Assembly (NCBI GenBank): GCA_026989935.1
Contig: JALSIN010000362.1
Span: forward strand, 1-50,582
Length of the DNA stretch: 50,582 bases
Direction: 5' to 3'
Source: Polyangiaceae bacterium
Lineage (GTDB): Bacteria > Myxococcota_A > Polyangia > Nannocystales > Nannocystaceae
Of the stretch, positions 474 to 42,335 are shown one piece after another (position 1 is the first letter of the stretch; each line of letters starts with the position of its first letter). The position numbers and the translations under genes were made by a program. A model generated the notes under the pieces. That model did no database searches. It worked only from the letters and a program-made list of their open reading frames with translations, and was not told where the DNA came from.

Positions 474-3470
474 CTACGGGCGCGGGGAACGGGGCGGGGG
501 CTCGCGCCCGCTGGTCGCGCCGACCGAGGCCTCCCGTGGGGACGGGAGCGCGGCGGCCGACGCCCGGGCGAGGACCGCGACGACCATGGCGAGCCGGCGC
601 ACCCGGCCCAGCTCGGCGGCGCGCGCCTGCACCCGCAGGCGCGGTTCGAAGGCCGCGACCACCTCGTCGAGCGTCCCGGCGGCGTCCCGAAGGGCCGCTT
701 CGAGGTTCGCCGCGAGGCGGGTGCGAAGGTCCGACTCGCCCACGGCCGCCGCCTCCGCCGCCCCGGCCAAAAGGCGCGGGGACGGGCCTTCGAGGCCGCG
801 GCGGACCGCCGCCCGCAACGCCGCGGTGACGGCCGCCTCCGCCGCCGGCCGCAGGGGGCGGGGCCACCGCGAAAGGTCCGCCTCGAAAGCGCGACCGGCC
901 GCGCGGTCGAGGGCGTGCTCGAACCGGTCGAGCAACAGCCGCCCGTCCGCCTCGTGCCACGGGCCGAGCCGAGCCGAACCCACCCGCACGACGCCGACCG
1001 ACAGGAGCGCGCGCACCCAGGCGTCCGCCACCGGATCGACGAGCCGATCGGCGAGACGTCCGGCCGACCGCAGCAGGTCCTCCTGCGCCGCGCCAGCCGC
1101 CCGCTCGCCCAGGTCCTCCAGCGAACCGGACGGATCCGCCACGGTCTCGAGCGTCGTCGCCACGTGGCGCAGGCGACCGGCCAGCCCCGCGCGCTTGTGG
1201 GCGCGGCCGCGGGCGACCACCTGGCGCTCGAACCAGGCGACGAAGGCCCCGCGCCCCGGGTCGTCCGGCGCCCCTTCGACCGCCGCTTCCAAGAGCGCTC
1301 GGCCGCAGGCCGGAACGACCGCCTCGGCTGGCAGTCCAAGGCGCTCGCGGACGTGTGCGAGCAGGCGGTCGCGGTCGCCCGCCGGCACGGCGTCGATCTT
1401 GTTGACCACGACGAACACCGCCCGCCCCTGCGCCCGCAGCCGGGCGATCCGGTCGGCGTCGTGCGCACCGACGCCGCCCGTGGCCGCCAGCACCCACACG
1501 ACGGCGTCGGCCTCCGCCAGCCGCGCCTCGGCCACGGCCGCGTGATACGGCTCGAGGGCGTCGAACCCGGGCACGTCGCACAGCACCAGGTCGTCCCACG
1601 GCAGGTCGGGCCGCTCGACGCAAACGGAGCGGATCGACGCGGCCTGCGCCGGCTCGAGGTCGGCCAGGAACGACGGCACCGCCTCACCGTCCAGGGAGCG
1701 CCGGCGGCCGTCCCGGTACGCCACGACGGCGCCCGCGCGTTCGCCACGCCGCACCTTGGCGATCGTGTTCGTCGTCGCCAGCGCGCCCACCGGCAGCAAG
1801 GCCGCACCGACCAGCGCATCCACCAGGGTGCTCTTGCCCGCCGAGAAGCCCCCGGCGAACACCACCCGCACCGGCCCGGCGGCGGCCCGGGCCGCCGCCG
1901 CGATCGCCTGCGCCGCCTCCCCGCCCGCCGCGGCGAGGGGCCCCACCTCGAAGGCCGCCGCCGCCGCGAGCCCCTGCCCCAACGCGGACAGGCGCGCCAG
2001 GACCTGCTCGACGGCCGGCGCGGCCCCGGCACCGCCGTCCGGCCCCACGGCCGCCGCCTCGCCGCGCGCGAGGTACGACGGGTGCACCCGAGCCGCCAGG
2101 TCGGCGACCGCATCCAGATCGTCCAACGATGCCTCCTTCGCCCCCTCGAAGGCCGCCAGCGCCGCCACGGCCTCGCGCAGGTCGGGATCGGCCAGGGGAC
2201 TCTCGACACCCGGCACCGGCGCGGCGCCCTCGTCGGTACGGGCGGCCGGCGGCCGCGATTCGATCCCCGTGCGGGCGAGCACCCAGAGCCCCTCGGGCCG
2301 GCCGGCGACGGACGACTCGGCGGCGACCGCCTCCGCGAGCCACCCCGGCGCGTTCCCGGCCACCACGGCCACGTGGCACGCCTCGGCCACCAGCGCGGCG
2401 CGGGCGGCGGGGGAGGGGGCCCGGTCGAGCACCGCGCGGTAGGGGTCGAGATCGCCGGCGGACGCGGCCGGCGACCACGGCGCCCGGCGCGGGTCGGCCG
2501 CGGTACGGGCCCACAACAGCGCAAGGCGCGGGGGGAGGTCGCCGACCTCCACGCCCATCGAAGCCGCGAGTGCGCCGGCGGACCGGCCGGTGCGATGGGC
2601 GGCGGCGAGCACCGCGCACGCCCCCACGTGCTGGGCCGCCCGCCGATCGACGGCGCCCAGCGCCTCGACCCGCGCGGCCGCCGTGCGAACGTCGCCCGTC
2701 ACCGCGGCGACGAGCGCCTCGACGGCCAGGCACGCGAAGCGGGCGAGTTTCGCGGGCGCCGTGGCGTCGTTGGGCGACGCACCGGGCGCGGACGCCGGAC
2801 CGGCTTCGAGCCCACGCACCGCCCGGCGCCACCGGCCCGCGTCGAGCGCAAGGCGCATGCGCGCCGCCGACACCGCGGCGGCCAGGGGCTGGCCGAGGCC
2901 CCCCACCCCGCCGCCGTCGCCCAGGGCCACCGCCAGATCCCGCTCTGCGCGCGCCCGGTCGCCCGCCGCGGCCCGGACGACCCCGGACGCCACGAGCGCC
3001 AGGTCGCGGGCCTCGCCGTCGCCACCGGCGTGCCGCAGCGCCGCGCGCGTGCGGTCGAGGGCCCCTTCGACGTCCCCGCCGTCGAGGGCGTCGAGCGCCG
3101 CCGCCAGGTCCCGCAAGACCCCCTCCGGCGGGCCGTGCGCGCCCGCGCCCGCCGCCGCCTCGGACGGCACCGCCGGCACGTCGAGTCGCGTCCCCGCCGC
3201 CGACGACGCGGCCGCCGCCACCAGGCGCCACCGGGCCGCAAACCGCGCCCACGCCTCGGCGCGATCTTCGTCCGACATGGATCGAACCGCTTCGGCGTGC
3301 GCCGCCGCATCGAGCGCCCGGCGCGCCGCCAACGCCGCCCGCCCCGGGGCGGTGCCCTCCTCCTCCCGCCCGAGCACCCGCGCCTGCACGTCTTCGACGA
3401 GCCCCCCCACCCGGCGCGCCCATCGCCCGAGCCGCCGCCGCCCGCCGTCTCGCTCGTCCTTCCCGCCCAT
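474..3470 (-). CDS. Large dynamin-like GTPase with long helical N-terminus
   Basis: The 998-residue protein has about 530 Ala/Arg-rich residues that look helical and loosely TPR-like, then a dynamin-type G domain. Visible G motifs are G1 GGFSAGKST (about 540-548), G2-like TTNT, G3 DVPG (about 632) and G4 NKID (about 690). A helical C-terminal region follows, with one weakly hydrophobic stretch near the end. Bacterial dynamin-like proteins bind and remodel membranes using GTP. I chose the ATG at 3470 because GAGGGG lies about 11 bases upstream and it sits 5 bases after the stop of the preceding GTPase gene. An ATG at 3527 is possible but has no ribosome site. It is the third gene of an operon with 5215 and 6060. 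GTPase identity is secure; the membrane role is inferred from family. Confidence 0.88.
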   Translation of the reverse strand: MGGKDERDGGRRRLGRWARRVGGLVEDVQARVLGREEEGTAPGRAALAARRALDAAAHAEAVRSMSDEDRAEAWARFAARWRLVAAAASSAAGTRLDVPAVPSEAAAGAGAHGPPEGVLRDLAAALDALDGGDVEGALDRTRAALRHAGGDGEARDLALVASGVVRAAAGDRARAERDLAVALGDGGGVGGLGQPLAAAVSAARMRLALDAGRWRRAVRGLEAGPASAPGASPNDATAPAKLARFACLAVEALVAAVTGDVRTAAARVEALGAVDRRAAQHVGACAVLAAAHRTGRSAGALAASMGVEVGDLPPRLALLWARTAADPRRAPWSPAASAGDLDPYRAVLDRAPSPAARAALVAEACHVAVVAGNAPGWLAEAVAAESSVAGRPEGLWVLARTGIESRPPAARTDEGAAPVPGVESPLADPDLREAVAALAAFEGAKEASLDDLDAVADLAARVHPSYLARGEAAAVGPDGGAGAAPAVEQVLARLSALGQGLAAAAAFEVGPLAAAGGEAAQAIAAAARAAAGPVRVVFAGGFSAGKSTLVDALVGAALLPVGALATTNTIAKVRRGERAGAVVAYRDGRRRSLDGEAVPSFLADLEPAQAASIRSVCVERPDLPWDDLVLCDVPGFDALEPYHAAVAEARLAEADAVVWVLAATGGVGAHDADRIARLRAQGRAVFVVVNKIDAVPAGDRDRLLAHVRERLGLPAEAVVPACGRALLEAAVEGAPDDPGRGAFVAWFERQVVARGRAHKRAGLAGRLRHVATTLETVADPSGSLEDLGERAAGAAQEDLLRSAGRLADRLVDPVADAWVRALLSVGVVRVGSARLGPWHEADGRLLLDRFEHALDRAAGRAFEADLSRWPRPLRPAAEAAVTAALRAAVRRGLEGPSPRLLAGAAEAAAVGESDLRTRLAANLEAALRDAAGTLDEVVAAFEPRLRVQARAAELGRVRRLAMVVAVLARASAAALPSPREASVGATSGREPPPRSPRP

Positions 3471-3475
3471 GGCCG

Positions 3476-5215
3476 TCACCCCTCGATGCGGGTCCTCGCC
3501 CCCGCGCGCGCCCCGGTCCCCGCCCACCGGCGCCGCAGGTCGGCCAGGACCTGGGCATGCGCCTCGACCGCCGCCAGCGCCCGCCTGCGTTCGTCGGTCG
3601 TGGCCGACGCGAGCCGGCGCTGCGCGTGTTCGAGCTGGGCTTCGAGGTGGTCAATGAGATCGCTGCCCGCCAGCACCAGGTGCTCGTCGAGGGCGGCGCG
3701 GTAGCGATCGACGGCCGCCCGCAGCACACGGGCGAGCGCGGCGGCGGCCTCGTCGAGGGCGGCGGGGAGCTGCTCGCGCACGCGGGCCCGGGCCTTGCGC
3801 ACGGACTGCTCGCGCAGCATCACGGTGGCCAGGGGCCCGGCCACCGCCATCGTCATCCCGGCGGCCACGCTGCCGAAGTACATCAAGAACGTCCCGGCGA
3901 GCCCCACCGCCAGCGTGCCGGCCTCGATGGCCAGGGACGGCGGATCCACGTACACCGTCGGACCATACGCGGACAGGGCGAGATGGGCCTCCCCGAGCCG
4001 GCGCGCGACGCCGTCGCCCACGGTCCGCCGCGCGCGCCGCGACAGCCGTTCGAGTTCCTCGGCCAGTTGCTCCCCGCGCCGCCGCAGGAACAGCAGGCAG
4101 GCGTCGTGGATCGAGCCGGGCAGACGGTCGGCGAGGGTTTGCAGGCTCGCGACGTCCACCACCGCCCGGCAGCTCGTCTCGAGCTCGGCGCGAAACTCGG
4201 CCACGTCCCGTTCGAGCCGCTGCGCGAGCGCCTCCGCCGACCGGGCCAGGTCCGCCCGCGCCTGCGCGACGTCCCGATCCACCCCGGCCTTGGCCGCACG
4301 CAACGCGGCGAGCTCCGCGGCCAGGGTCTCGGGGGTAAGCGACAGCACCCGCCGCTCGATGGCCAGGTGGTGCTCCAGGAGCGCGGCCGTGCGGTCGAGG
4401 TCCGCCCGCGTCCGGTCGGGCAGCTTCGCCGCGTGGCGCACGGCGATCTCGATCACCGCCGCCCGCAGGTGCGCGTCCGTCCCCGCCGCCGCCGCGCGCG
4501 CGTCCACGAAGAAGACCCCGCCGTCCGTGGCCCGATCCCCGACCACCTGTCGCACGTGCGCCTCGACGGCGGCCCGCTCCTTGGGCGGCACCAGGTCGGT
4601 CCGCGTCACGACCACCACCAGCGCCGCCCCGGACGACCGCAGCCCGCCGAGGGCCTCCACGACGGCGGCCAAGAACGCCTGCTCGCTGCGCGCCATGGCC
4701 TGCGTGGCGTCGAGGACCAGCACCAGCACGTCCGCCGAGGGCAGCTCGGCGAGCACGGCGGCCGGGTCCGGCGCGCCCTCGTCCCCGATGCCGGGGGTGT
4801 CCACGACCTCCACTCGGGCCTCGTCCTCGGAGACCGGCCCCACGACCACGGTGCCCGGCGCCCGATCCCGCCCGCGCACCAGGGCCTCGAACCGGGCGGC
4901 GTCGAGCGGCTCGGCCATCCCGTCGTCCCCGACCAGGTGCGGCCCCGGCGGCACGTCGCCGCCGACGACCACCGCCCGCCGGGTCGTGGGCAACACGTCC
5001 ACCGGCACCACGGGCCGCCCGACGAGCGCGTTGACGACGGTGCTCTTGCCGCGCCCGGTCCGGCCCACGACGGCCACGCGCGGGCGCCGGGCGCGGAGGC
5101 GGCGGGCCGTGTCAGCGACGATCCGGTCGGCGAGGCGATCGAGCCCCAGCGCGCGCGCGACGGCGACGAGCCGGTCCACGTCCGCGGCGCGCAGGTCGGG
5201 GCGGGCGGCGGTCAC
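3476..5215 (-). CDS. Dynamin-like GTPase with C-terminal membrane hairpin
   Basis: This 579-residue protein has G1 GRTGRGKST at 51-59, a Thr pair at 77-78 for G2, G3 DTPGIGDEG from 139, and TRTD at 204-207 in the G4 position instead of NKxD. Long helices follow (about 250-420), then a hydrophobic hairpin at about 428-466 and a final amphipathic helical region. This is the layout of bacterial dynamin-like proteins with a membrane paddle. Start is GTG at 5215, overlapping the stop of the upstream M48-like gene as GTGA, so translation is probably coupled. It is followed 5 bases later by a second, larger dynamin-like gene. Bacterial dynamins often occur as side-by-side pairs that form hetero-oligomers, so the two probably act together. 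Confidence 0.92.
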   Translation of the reverse strand: MTAARPDLRAADVDRLVAVARALGLDRLADRIVADTARRLRARRPRVAVVGRTGRGKSTVVNALVGRPVVPVDVLPTTRRAVVVGGDVPPGPHLVGDDGMAEPLDAARFEALVRGRDRAPGTVVVGPVSEDEARVEVVDTPGIGDEGAPDPAAVLAELPSADVLVLVLDATQAMARSEQAFLAAVVEALGGLRSSGAALVVVVTRTDLVPPKERAAVEAHVRQVVGDRATDGGVFFVDARAAAAGTDAHLRAAVIEIAVRHAAKLPDRTRADLDRTAALLEHHLAIERRVLSLTPETLAAELAALRAAKAGVDRDVAQARADLARSAEALAQRLERDVAEFRAELETSCRAVVDVASLQTLADRLPGSIHDACLLFLRRRGEQLAEELERLSRRARRTVGDGVARRLGEAHLALSAYGPTVYVDPPSLAIEAGTLAVGLAGTFLMYFGSVAAGMTMAVAGPLATVMLREQSVRKARARVREQLPAALDEAAAALARVLRAAVDRYRAALDEHLVLAGSDLIDHLEAQLEHAQRRLASATTDERRRALAAVEAHAQVLADLRRRWAGTGARAGARTRIEG

Positions 5216-6060
5216 GGCAGGCCCAACCTCCGGGTGAGCCGGGCGTCGCAGCGGGCGAGCGACCAGCCGGGCAGGGCGTCGCGCGGCGGGACCTCGGCGC
5301 GCGCGTCGTCCTCGCCGGCCGCGCGGCGGCGCGTGGCGGACACGATGGCGCTGCGATCGAAGTCCGCGAGGGCCTCGAGGCGCAGGTCGATGGACGGAAA
5401 CCGCGGCCAGCCCGCCATGCGGCGGCCCGTGCGCTCGATCCACGCGAGGGCGGTGCGGGCGGCCGTAAGGTCGAGGGCCAGCAGGTGCCCGGCGCGGTCC
5501 GCCGAGAACGGCGCGACCTTCGTGAACGGGCCGAGCAGGCGCCGGGTCGTCCACCGCGGCACGGCCCGTCCGGCGGCGGCCAGGTGCGCGGTGAACAGGA
5601 TCCCGTGGTCGCACTGCAGGTGTCCGAGCCCGTGCCCCACCACGAAGGCCCGCTCGGCCGGACCCAGCTCGTCGAAGGCGGCCGGGTCGAACACGAGCCA
5701 GGACACCGCGCCGTGGAGGGTCCCCAGCGGCAACACCCCGGGCATGGCGGCGCCCTCGCGCACCACGCGGACGGCGGGGATCGGCGTGCGCAGGCGCTCG
5801 GCCCCCGCGGCCACGGCTTCGAGCAGCGCGCCGGGGACGGCCTCGGGGGGGGCGAGCACCGCCTCGGTCAGGCGGCGAACGAGCCGGGGCCATGCGCGGG
5901 CCACGCCGGCCACCAGCGGCCGCGCGACCTGCGAGGTGGACAGCCACGCCGCGCGCCGCAGGTCCACGCCGTAGGCGTAGAGGGCGCGGGCCATGCGCTC
6001 CTCGTAGGCGGAAAGCTCCCGCTGGCGCAGGAGCTGGCCGAGATCGGCGGCGACCGACAC
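5212..6060 (-). CDS. M48-like metalloprotease homologue with degenerate active site
   Basis: The 282-residue protein resembles the M48/HtpX peptidase core. The helix normally carrying HELGH reads VGHGLGHLQCDH at 141-152, so both zinc His (143, 147) remain but the catalytic Glu is Gly144. The later motif that normally reads ExxAD, whose Glu is the third zinc ligand, reads PFSAD at 184-188, giving Pro instead. It therefore looks like a pseudoprotease that could bind substrate or partners but should not cleave. No signal peptide or clear membrane helix is visible. It is first in an operon with two dynamin-like GTPases and overlaps the second gene as GTGA. Start GTG at 6060 has no Shine-Dalgarno but lies 9 bases after TGCTAGGAT. 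M48 assignment comes from motif context only. Confidence 0.75.
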   Translation of the reverse strand: MSVAADLGQLLRQRELSAYEERMARALYAYGVDLRRAAWLSTSQVARPLVAGVARAWPRLVRRLTEAVLAPPEAVPGALLEAVAAGAERLRTPIPAVRVVREGAAMPGVLPLGTLHGAVSWLVFDPAAFDELGPAERAFVVGHGLGHLQCDHGILFTAHLAAAGRAVPRWTTRRLLGPFTKVAPFSADRAGHLLALDLTAARTALAWIERTGRRMAGWPRFPSIDLRLEALADFDRSAIVSATRRRAAGEDDARAEVPPRDALPGWSLARCDARLTRRLGLP

Positions 6061-6078: not shown

Positions 6079-6236
6079 GGCCCCGCGCGCCCCGGCCGCC
6101 GGGCGACCGGCTCCGCCCCCATCGCGGGAGGACCGGCCCGGAGTGCCCCGACGCACCGTCCGAACGCGGGACGGGTCCACGCCCCATCGCCGGGGCCGCA
6201 CCCCGACCGCCCGCACCGGCCCCGGGCCCCGATCGA

Positions 6237-6265
6237 TTGCCTGCACCGGCCCGGTGCGGTATCCC
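6237..6265 (+). promoter_or_regulatory. Sigma-70-like promoter with palindromic spacer
   Basis: TTGCCT (6237-6242), a 17-base spacer and TATCCC (6260-6265) stand 9 bases before the GTG at 6275. Bases 6243-6257 inside the spacer form a perfect palindrome, GCACCGG-C-CCGGTGC, well placed for an operator. The same TTGCCn-17-TATCCn layout occurs at 21135. Confidence 0.5.
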
Positions 6266-6274
6266 GCAGCCTCC

Positions 6275-8167
6275 GTGACCCGCGCCCCAACGCCCCGCCG
6301 CACGGGCGACGTCGGACACCTGCCCGCCGACCTGTGGCGCCGTTCGGGCCGTCCCCTGCGGGGGCACCTGTTGCGCGGCGGGCTGGCGGCCTTCGTGGCG
6401 TCGCTCGGGCTGCTCGCGCCGAGCCCGGCGGCCGCCGGGGCCTTCGCCCTCGCCGGCGTGGGGCTGTTCTTCGCGCTGCCGTGGTGGGCCGACCGGCGCC
6501 TGGGGGCGATCGGCGATCGGCTGCGGGCGCAGAAACACCACGAGGCGCTGGAGACGATCCGCCGGACCGAACGGGCCCGGGTGCTCGGGGCCCTGATGCC
6601 CCACGGCTGGGTGCACGCGGCCCGGGGGGGAGTGCTCCTGCGCGCGGGGGACGGCCGCGGGGCGGCGGCGGCCCTCGAGGCCTGTGGGCGGGTGTGCGGC
6701 CGCGCAACGGACCCGCGGATCGTCCGGGCCCGGCTCGAAGCGCACCTGGTCGCGGGCGATGCGGACGAGGCCGCGCGTCGCCTGTCCGAGCTGGGGCCCG
6801 GGCGGACCCCCGAGGACGAGCTGGCCGCGGCCGTGGTGGCGCTCGCGACGAGGGCGGGCACGAAGGCCGCAGGCGATCCACTCGAAGCCGCCCGGCCCGC
6901 GCTGGCGGCGACGGCCCGATGGCGGGCGGCCTTCGCCCTCTACGCCGCGCGCACCGGCGACGCGGACGAGGCCCGCACCCTGCTTGCGACCATCGAGGAC
7001 GAAGACGACACGGCCCGCGATCCGGTGGCCGCCACGCTGGCCCGCAAGGCCCGCAAGGCCCTGCGGGACCTCGACGAGAAGGCCGGGCGCAGACGAAGGC
7101 GGGGGCGCACCAAGGGGCGTCGGGCCGGGGACGCGCGGGCGGACGAGCGTGACGGCGGTGCCCCGGCCGGACGCAAGCAACACGCGAAGACGCGCAAGAA
7201 GGGCGGCAAGAAGCGCCGCAAGGATCGGCGCAAGGTGCGGCGCGAGCGGCGTAGGGCGGCCCGGGCACAGTCCTCCGGCGCACCGGCGAAAGGCGCCGAC
7301 GCGGCGACCGAACCCCGCGCGGCCCGAAGCGCGGACGCCGAACGGCAGGACCGGACGCCGGGACGGAACTCGATGGACGAGGCCCCGGCGACACACCGAT
7401 CCCCACCGCCGGCGCGAGGCAGAACCGACGGGGCGGCGGGCGATCGGACCGCGGCCGGGGACGGGGCCGAGGCGACGAGGGACCCCGCCGGGGCCACGAC
7501 GACCCCGGACGGCCGCCGACCCCGGCCCGGCTTCCGTGCGAACGAAACCACACGCCCGGCGACCGCCGCCTCCACGCGGCCGGACGGCACCGACACGGGC
7601 GGGGGCCCACGGGAAACGACCGCAGCGTCCGAGGAACGCGAGGCTCCGGCCTCGTTCGGGTCTACGTTGGGCGCTTCGGCGAGCACCGGTGCGGATCCCC
7701 GCCGCCGGGCCCCGGACACGCGGCCCTGGGACGCCGGATCGTCGGACCGCCCGGCGGGCGCGGGCGGGGACCGGTCTGCGAGCCCCACGGGTGGGGGAGC
7801 GGCTGCACCCGCCACCCCTCGGTTTGCGCCCCCGCCGCTGCCGGCCCTCCACCCGCCCCCGGCGGAGCGGCCGCCGGGGGATACGGACGCCCCGGCCCCC
7901 GGGCCGGCGCCGCCCCGCCCCCCGACCGCCGGGCGCGTACCGGAGACGCCCCCGAGCAGCGGCCCCCCGGGGGCCCGTCGGCCCGGCCCGGTCCCGGCCG
8001 CGACACCGCCGCGAACGGACGCGCCCCGTCCCCCGGCGGCGACCGGCGCCGGGCCTTCGGCGCCCGCGACCTCCATCGGGGCGGGGTGGCTGGACCTCCT
8101 CGACGAGGTGGACACGCTCGAGACGCCACCCCCCGGCCCGCCGGCGGGGACCGGCAAGGACCGGTAG
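6275..8167 (+). CDS. Membrane protein with helical repeats and long basic/proline-rich tail
   Basis: I do not recognise a named family. The 630-residue protein starts at GTG 6275, where the preceding sequence stops looking like coding and a promoter ends. Two hydrophobic segments near residues 35-75 suggest a membrane hairpin. An Ala/Arg-rich helical region of about 190 residues follows, with TPR-like spacing (GDADEAARRL, GDADEARTLL). Next come about 70 residues dense in Lys and Arg (KKGGKKRRKDRR), then about 280 residues rich in Pro, Gly, Ala, Thr and Arg that must be disordered. Third codon positions stay almost all G or C throughout, supporting translation to the end. It is divergent from the M48/dynamin operon across about 215 bases, so the two may be co-regulated. 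Confidence 0.7.
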   Translation: MTRAPTPRRTGDVGHLPADLWRRSGRPLRGHLLRGGLAAFVASLGLLAPSPAAAGAFALAGVGLFFALPWWADRRLGAIGDRLRAQKHHEALETIRRTERARVLGALMPHGWVHAARGGVLLRAGDGRGAAAALEACGRVCGRATDPRIVRARLEAHLVAGDADEAARRLSELGPGRTPEDELAAAVVALATRAGTKAAGDPLEAARPALAATARWRAAFALYAARTGDADEARTLLATIEDEDDTARDPVAATLARKARKALRDLDEKAGRRRRRGRTKGRRAGDARADERDGGAPAGRKQHAKTRKKGGKKRRKDRRKVRRERRRAARAQSSGAPAKGADAATEPRAARSADAERQDRTPGRNSMDEAPATHRSPPPARGRTDGAAGDRTAAGDGAEATRDPAGATTTPDGRRPRPGFRANETTRPATAASTRPDGTDTGGGPRETTAASEEREAPASFGSTLGASASTGADPRRRAPDTRPWDAGSSDRPAGAGGDRSASPTGGGAAAPATPRFAPPPLPALHPPPAERPPGDTDAPAPGPAPPRPPTAGRVPETPPSSGPPGARRPGPVPAATPPRTDAPRPPAATGAGPSAPATSIGAGWLDLLDEVDTLETPPPGPPAGTGKDR

Positions 8168-41958: not shown

Positions 41959-42048
41959 CGGACCGAATCGAGGCGACGTTTGGACGCTTCGAGCCCAAGG
42001 TGGCCGCAGGCGCGGGCAGGGGGCGGAGGGGCGGCCCGTGACGTGCCC

Positions 42049-42335
42049 AGCGGACGATGCGATGGCGCTCGACGCTCGACGCGCGGCCGGCGGACGGGCC
42101 TTCGGGCCCGTGGCGTGCCGGGCGAACGGTGCGACGGCGCTCGACGCTCGCCCCGCGGCCTGCGGACGGGCCTTCGGGCCCGCGCCGGGGCGCCGAGCGG
42201 ACGATGCGATGGCGCTCGACGCTCGACGCGCGGCCTGCGGGCGCGCGCGGGGGCGCCGAGCGGACGATGCGATGGCGTTCGACGCTCGACGCGCGGCCTG
42301 CGGACGGGCCTTCGGGCCCGCGCGCGGGCGCCGGG
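42049..42335. repeat. Four-copy minisatellite with UUCG hairpins
   Basis: Four copies start at 42049, 42121, 42196 and 42259, each opening with a variant of GCGGACGATGCGATGGCG and containing CTCGACGCTCG. Copies 1, 2 and 4 contain CGGGCC-TTCG-GGCCCG, a 6-bp stem with the very stable C(UUCG)G loop. Copy 3 lacks that part. Spacings are 72, 75 and 63 bases. The role is unknown; structured RNA, DNA secondary structure or mere slippage are all possible. Confidence 0.85.

Follow-up and report, generated by a model that had tools for sequence, protein, structure and literature searches.

The window analysed here is one whole contig of 50,582 bases from a 4.47-Mb draft genome, and the three genes of interest lie at its left end. 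All three are encoded on the minus strand in the order M48-fold gene, d1 and d2 (Table 1). The stop codon of the M48 gene overlaps the GTG start of d1 in the tetranucleotide GTGA, and d1 and d2 are separated by a gap of 5 bases. A sequence-only reading of the same DNA had described the locus as a one-strand operon with this overlap and this gap; both are indeed present in the sequence, and the arrangement is conserved well beyond the window genome. No useful promoter or terminator signals were found at the locus. Tandem repeats, imperfect and with a unit of about 71-72 bases, occur at positions 122-306 and 42033-42324 of the window; one of these repeats lies at the contig end, where the assembly probably stopped.

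Table 1. Genes and motifs at the left end of the window.
Feature	Positions	Strand	Basis
Putative pseudo-M48 protein, 282 aa, GTG start	5212..6060	-	ORF; M48 fold; 27 family homologues
HGLGH at the HExxH position, Glu to Gly (codon GGG), residues 143-147	5620..5634	-	sequence
PFSADRAG at the E-x-T-C-D-R-A-G position; third zinc ligand Glu to Pro	5488..5511	-	sequence
d1, 579-aa dynamin-like GTPase with hydrophobic tip	3476..5215	-	Dynamin_N; IniA and BDLP1 relatives; GTGA overlap
d1 hydrophobic hairpin-like stretch, residues 430-466 (within a hydrophobic run at residues 427-467)	3818..3928	-	hydropathy
d2, 998-aa dynamin-like GTPase with TPR-like alpha-solenoid front of ~500 residues	474..3470	-	Dynamin_N; TPR relatives; model
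Protein with hydrophobic N-terminal segment, TPR-like part and long low-complexity tail	6143..8167	+	syntenic homologues; hydropathy

Profile searches of the window M48 protein against Pfam and NCBIfam matched no model. An AlphaFold2 model built from 36 relatives was of high confidence (pLDDT 93.9, pTM 0.92). With this model Foldseek gave only weak matches, at best E 6e-3, the top ones being Ste24p, BepA and ZMPSTE24, and a structural ranking with VIA placed M48 enzymes at the top (3c37, Z 9.8; BepA, 9.7; Ste24p, 8.2), the related BlaR1 ranking below them. In the tree, the protein falls inside the M48-dynamin clade. It carries HGLGH in place of the HExxH of active enzymes, and the third-ligand Glu of the ExxAD region is replaced by Pro184. 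The same two glutamates are missing from 27 of 27 homologues of the window family; as these come from independent genomes, a sequencing error can be dismissed. The first His is also lost in most family members, and no transmembrane segment was predicted in the window protein. It thus shares the fold and the DRAG segment of peptidase family M48 (HtpX, BepA, Ste24, OMA1) but differs in the lost catalytic Glu and third zinc ligand and in being missed by the Pfam model. Relatives outside the window family match Peptidase_M48 (PF01435) at E values of about 1e-26 to 1e-28, and in those next to d1 both HExGH and the third-ligand Glu are present. Judged from sequence and model, the window protein is an M48 protein in fold and not in chemistry, that is, a predicted pseudoprotease; the earlier description of an M48-like protein without catalytic Glu was correct.

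Both d1 and d2 match Dynamin_N above the curated Pfam cut-off (E values of 1.2e-18 and 8.6e-17, respectively) and show the sequence features of the dynamin superfamily, namely G1, the switch Thr, G3 (DxPG) and G4. The motifs read GRTGRGKST, DTPG and TRTD, a variant G4, in d1, and GGFSAGKST, DVPG and NKID in d2. By sequence, the nearest solved dynamin-family relatives of d1 are IniA and BDLP1, from which d1 differs in its operon. BDLP1 and the Campylobacter DLP1/2 pair are among the nearest solved relatives of d2 by profile, and the d2 model also matches that pair. The d2 front has TPR repeats as sequence relatives and is helical in the model. The dynamin with a membrane hairpin and the larger dynamin with a helical front that had been read from the sequence can thus be recognized in d1, with its hydrophobic hairpin-like stretch, and in d2. 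In the tree, the d2 proteins of the window family form a fully supported group with long dynamins that bear TPR repeats; the latter come from four loci of other Myxococcota, where they follow an intact HECGH M48 gene and d1.

To describe the spread of the M48-d1 pairing, loci were scored with local profiles in draft genomes, with gene calls taken from open frames. Relatives of the window M48 protein were found in 61 of the 284 sampled genomes of the phylum, and a profile of the intact M48 members reached 60 of the 284 at E < 1e-55. Named relatives, Sorangium cellulosum and Polyangium sp., identify the phylum as Myxococcota. Among the 67 loci on contigs that continue for at least 1.9 kb, to which this count was limited, d1 directly adjoins the M48 gene in 66. 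The sequence-only reading had named the lack of any association outside this genome as a refuting outcome; the opposite is the case. Within the window family the M48 gene is present in 27 of 29 genomes, both exceptions being incomplete, and in all 19 good genomes. In the first locus set, the site was broken in 27/27 loci of the window family and intact in 39 of the 44 loci outside it (broken in the other 5). Since HExGH and the third-ligand Glu are retained by most relatives outside the window family, the coupling of M48 to dynamin is the general condition and the broken M48 a derived one. A broken M48 as the defining feature of the system is therefore rejected, since intact relatives share the operon. 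Intact M48 genes clustered with two to four dynamin genes were also found in Cyanobacteria, Chloroflexota, Fibrobacterota and Clostridia; such clusters are rare outside the phylum (1/146 in the cyanobacterial sample and 3/245 in the Clostridia sample, centre genome counted).

Over all loci, the three-gene form was found with 28 broken and four intact sites, the broken ones coming mostly from one family, and the two-gene form on contigs with room with 47 intact and four broken sites. A three-gene order confined to broken M48 forms was rejected, as four loci (L143, L145, L158 and L162) combine it with HECGH. The expectation that gene order would be conserved and the Glu lost in most members was thus borne out in part: the order is conserved and 28 of the 32 three-gene loci have lost the site, but most loci of the first set outside the window family have kept it. 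Neighbourhoods that keep HExGH, including the four intact three-gene loci, are common, and the broken M48 could not be upheld as the mark of the system. In a later locus set, five more three-gene loci had broken sites (HHCGH, HQLGH twice, QQCGH and RECGR), and a sixth broken locus (L258, RECGR) had no adjacent d2. When kinship was considered, the association between the broken state and d2 was not significant, with three independent pairs and with L258 mis-entered as d2-bearing. Kinship explains much of the association between broken M48 and the three-gene form. In the first locus set, no conserved downstream third gene was detected outside the window family. In genus g195, d2 is located elsewhere in the genome, away from M48-d1; a loss of d2 in this genus was accordingly rejected, and strict co-transcription of all three genes is unnecessary.

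The broken sites differ in kind. They are mostly [HSAQ][GA]LGH-like in family f1, HQLGH with all three ligands kept in f8, HHCGH in f5, QQCGH in f15, RECGR in f7 and mostly RQLGH-like in f50 and f41; HQLGH loses only the catalytic Glu, while RECGR keeps it and loses both His. When the catalytic columns were masked, the broken state required at least four changes on the M48 tree, which also rejected a single origin of the Myxococcota broken forms (p-AU 0.006, likelihood lower by 49.7 units). With a smaller d1 tree a single origin was not rejected (p-AU 0.11), and the case for independent losses is therefore built on the M48 tree together with the diversity of the substitutions; the long branches that follow catalytic loss call for caution in reading it. 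The window-family M48 proteins sit on a very long stem branch, with 2.4-2.8 changes per column, which indicates much change since the loss and fits a change of role. For close pairs, dN/dS values (NG86) were 0.18-0.37 for the pseudo-M48 proteins, 0.12-0.34 for d1 and 0.15-0.40 for active M48 proteins. As the pseudo-M48 values resemble those of d1 and of intact M48, the protein is still under selection. In two loci with HQLGH (L253 and L254), the catalytic Glu is changed to Gln and the three zinc ligands are retained, which suggests that these forms might bind metal without catalysis. An M48 protein in a clostridial dynamin cluster (L232:9073-10125) reads SECGR and ADITADRAG; both His and the third ligand are lost, the latter position being occupied by Asp.

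The pairing, the gene order, the M48 fold, the repeated loss of the zinc site, the constraint and the core status in the family are matters of observation. That a broken site persists together with fold, gene order and constraint in several myxobacterial lineages suggests a non-enzymatic partner of the dynamins. We favour, with a probability of about 0.5, a membrane-remodelling module in which d1 and d2 form a heterotypic pair and the M48-fold protein is a non-catalytic regulatory or scaffold subunit. In such a module, d1 would be anchored by its hydrophobic tip, and d2 would bring in a second GTPase as well as a TPR-like arm. As a pair they would tether, repair or remodel the inner membrane. 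Encoded directly ahead of d1, the M48-fold protein would bind the dynamins or a client and thereby control d1 and d2. Its ancestor was an active M48 protease of the kind that is still found with d1 in most Myxococcota; there, d1 or some other protein of the envelope may be what the protease processes. Physical interaction, a site at the membrane and a non-catalytic role are what we infer for this module, and by the same inference an adaptor in membrane remodelling is the most likely function of the pseudo-M48 protein. The Campylobacter pair Cj-DLP1/DLP2, a tethering heterotetramer (PMC6104087), resembles d2 in profile and fold, and, like DynA/DynB and LeoABC/Eleos, has in common with the locus two different dynamin-like GTPases encoded by adjacent genes. 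The locus differs from these known pairs in the TPR-like front of d2 and in the constant M48-fold partner of d1, no such partner having been found reported for them.

The nearest analogy is mitochondrial OMA1, an M48 protease that regulates the dynamin OPA1 by cleavage (PMC8027119). An M48 fold is coupled to a dynamin-family GTPase in both cases. The likeness is one of arrangement and does not imply common descent. An active M48 enzyme cuts the dynamin in the mitochondrial system, whereas the zinc site is lost in the window protein and in its whole family; the topology differs as well, given the lack of a predicted transmembrane segment. Conceivably, the M48 protein normally cuts a dynamin or its regulator under stress, and in the window lineage the protease has become a pseudo-copy with a dominant-negative or inhibitory effect, which keeps d1 uncut by occupying the cleavage region. 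The intact HExGH/E site beside d1 in most relatives is consistent with this idea, as is the OMA1 precedent itself, but the pseudo-form replaces the active form in the operon. Furthermore, a second, active M48 copy with dynamins was not seen in the window family: nine other M48 loci in seven of its genomes are solo paralogues with no dynamin beside them. We consider this reading as a whole unlikely. On a wider scale, one may imagine that bacteria have a regulatory M48-dynamin module of their own, found widely in Myxococcota and patchily in Cyanobacteria, Chloroflexota, Fibrobacterota and Clostridia, that is functionally parallel to OMA1-OPA1 and whose protease several times became a pseudoprotease controlling the dynamin pair by binding alone; this picture is offered tentatively and is rather doubtful as a whole.

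A role in defence was also considered, either against phages or against membrane damage, as in Eleos (LeoABC) or Bacillus DynA. The PADLOC profiles LeoA and LeoBC match d1 and d2 with E values of 1e-11 to 1e-18, and the M48-multi-dynamin clusters outside the phylum are rare and patchy and have some defence-like neighbours. The Leo matches, however, span mainly the generic GTPase and stalk. Moreover, the place of the locus is fixed in the window family: a divergent gene lies upstream, the gene for RNase HII follows downstream in most genomes, and the other flanking genes include those for TsaD, PlsY, RecR and histidine biosynthesis. None of 50 flanking ORFs from 11 family loci had a PADLOC match at 1e-10, and the enrichment near defence genes that had been anticipated was therefore not found in the window family. 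A locus present in all good genomes beside housekeeping genes and free of defence neighbours gives the defence idea no support in this family, and this context points to a core function in the cell and away from a defence island. We regard a defence function as improbable. The divergent gene (6143-8167, Table 1) has homologues in the same place in most window-family loci, and its product is a possible partner or fourth component.

It is likewise improbable that the M48 protein is simply in decay, or that it serves some unrelated purpose and has no more than a transcript in common with the dynamins: dN/dS is well under 1, the gene always adjoins d1 and, among the family genomes, is missing only from two incomplete ones, and the model is confident and compact, despite the long branches after catalytic loss and the first His gone in most family members.

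The components are of known kinds; their stable combination and the repeated conversion into a pseudoprotease look new. In the open-access literature searched, we found no paper coupling a bacterial M48 protein or metalloprotease to dynamins. Few regulators of paired bacterial dynamins are known. An M48 partner that is constantly present, but whose site is active in most lineages and lost in several, provides a natural comparison of proteolysis with binding as means of dynamin control, and the M48-dynamin pair gives the OMA1-OPA1 logic a counterpart in bacteria, open to testing in culturable myxobacteria.

Two further arrangements were seen among the relatives. Clusters from Clostridia, Fibrobacterota and Cyanobacteria (L180, L177, L182, L174, L169 and L173) combine two to four dynamins with an intact HECGH M48 gene, and small zinc-ribbon, CD225 or DUF2752 proteins are sometimes interspersed. 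In family f22 (L043, L044, L048, L056 and relatives, 12 loci), a gene for an FHA-like and coiled-coil protein directly precedes M48-d1 in the same orientation.
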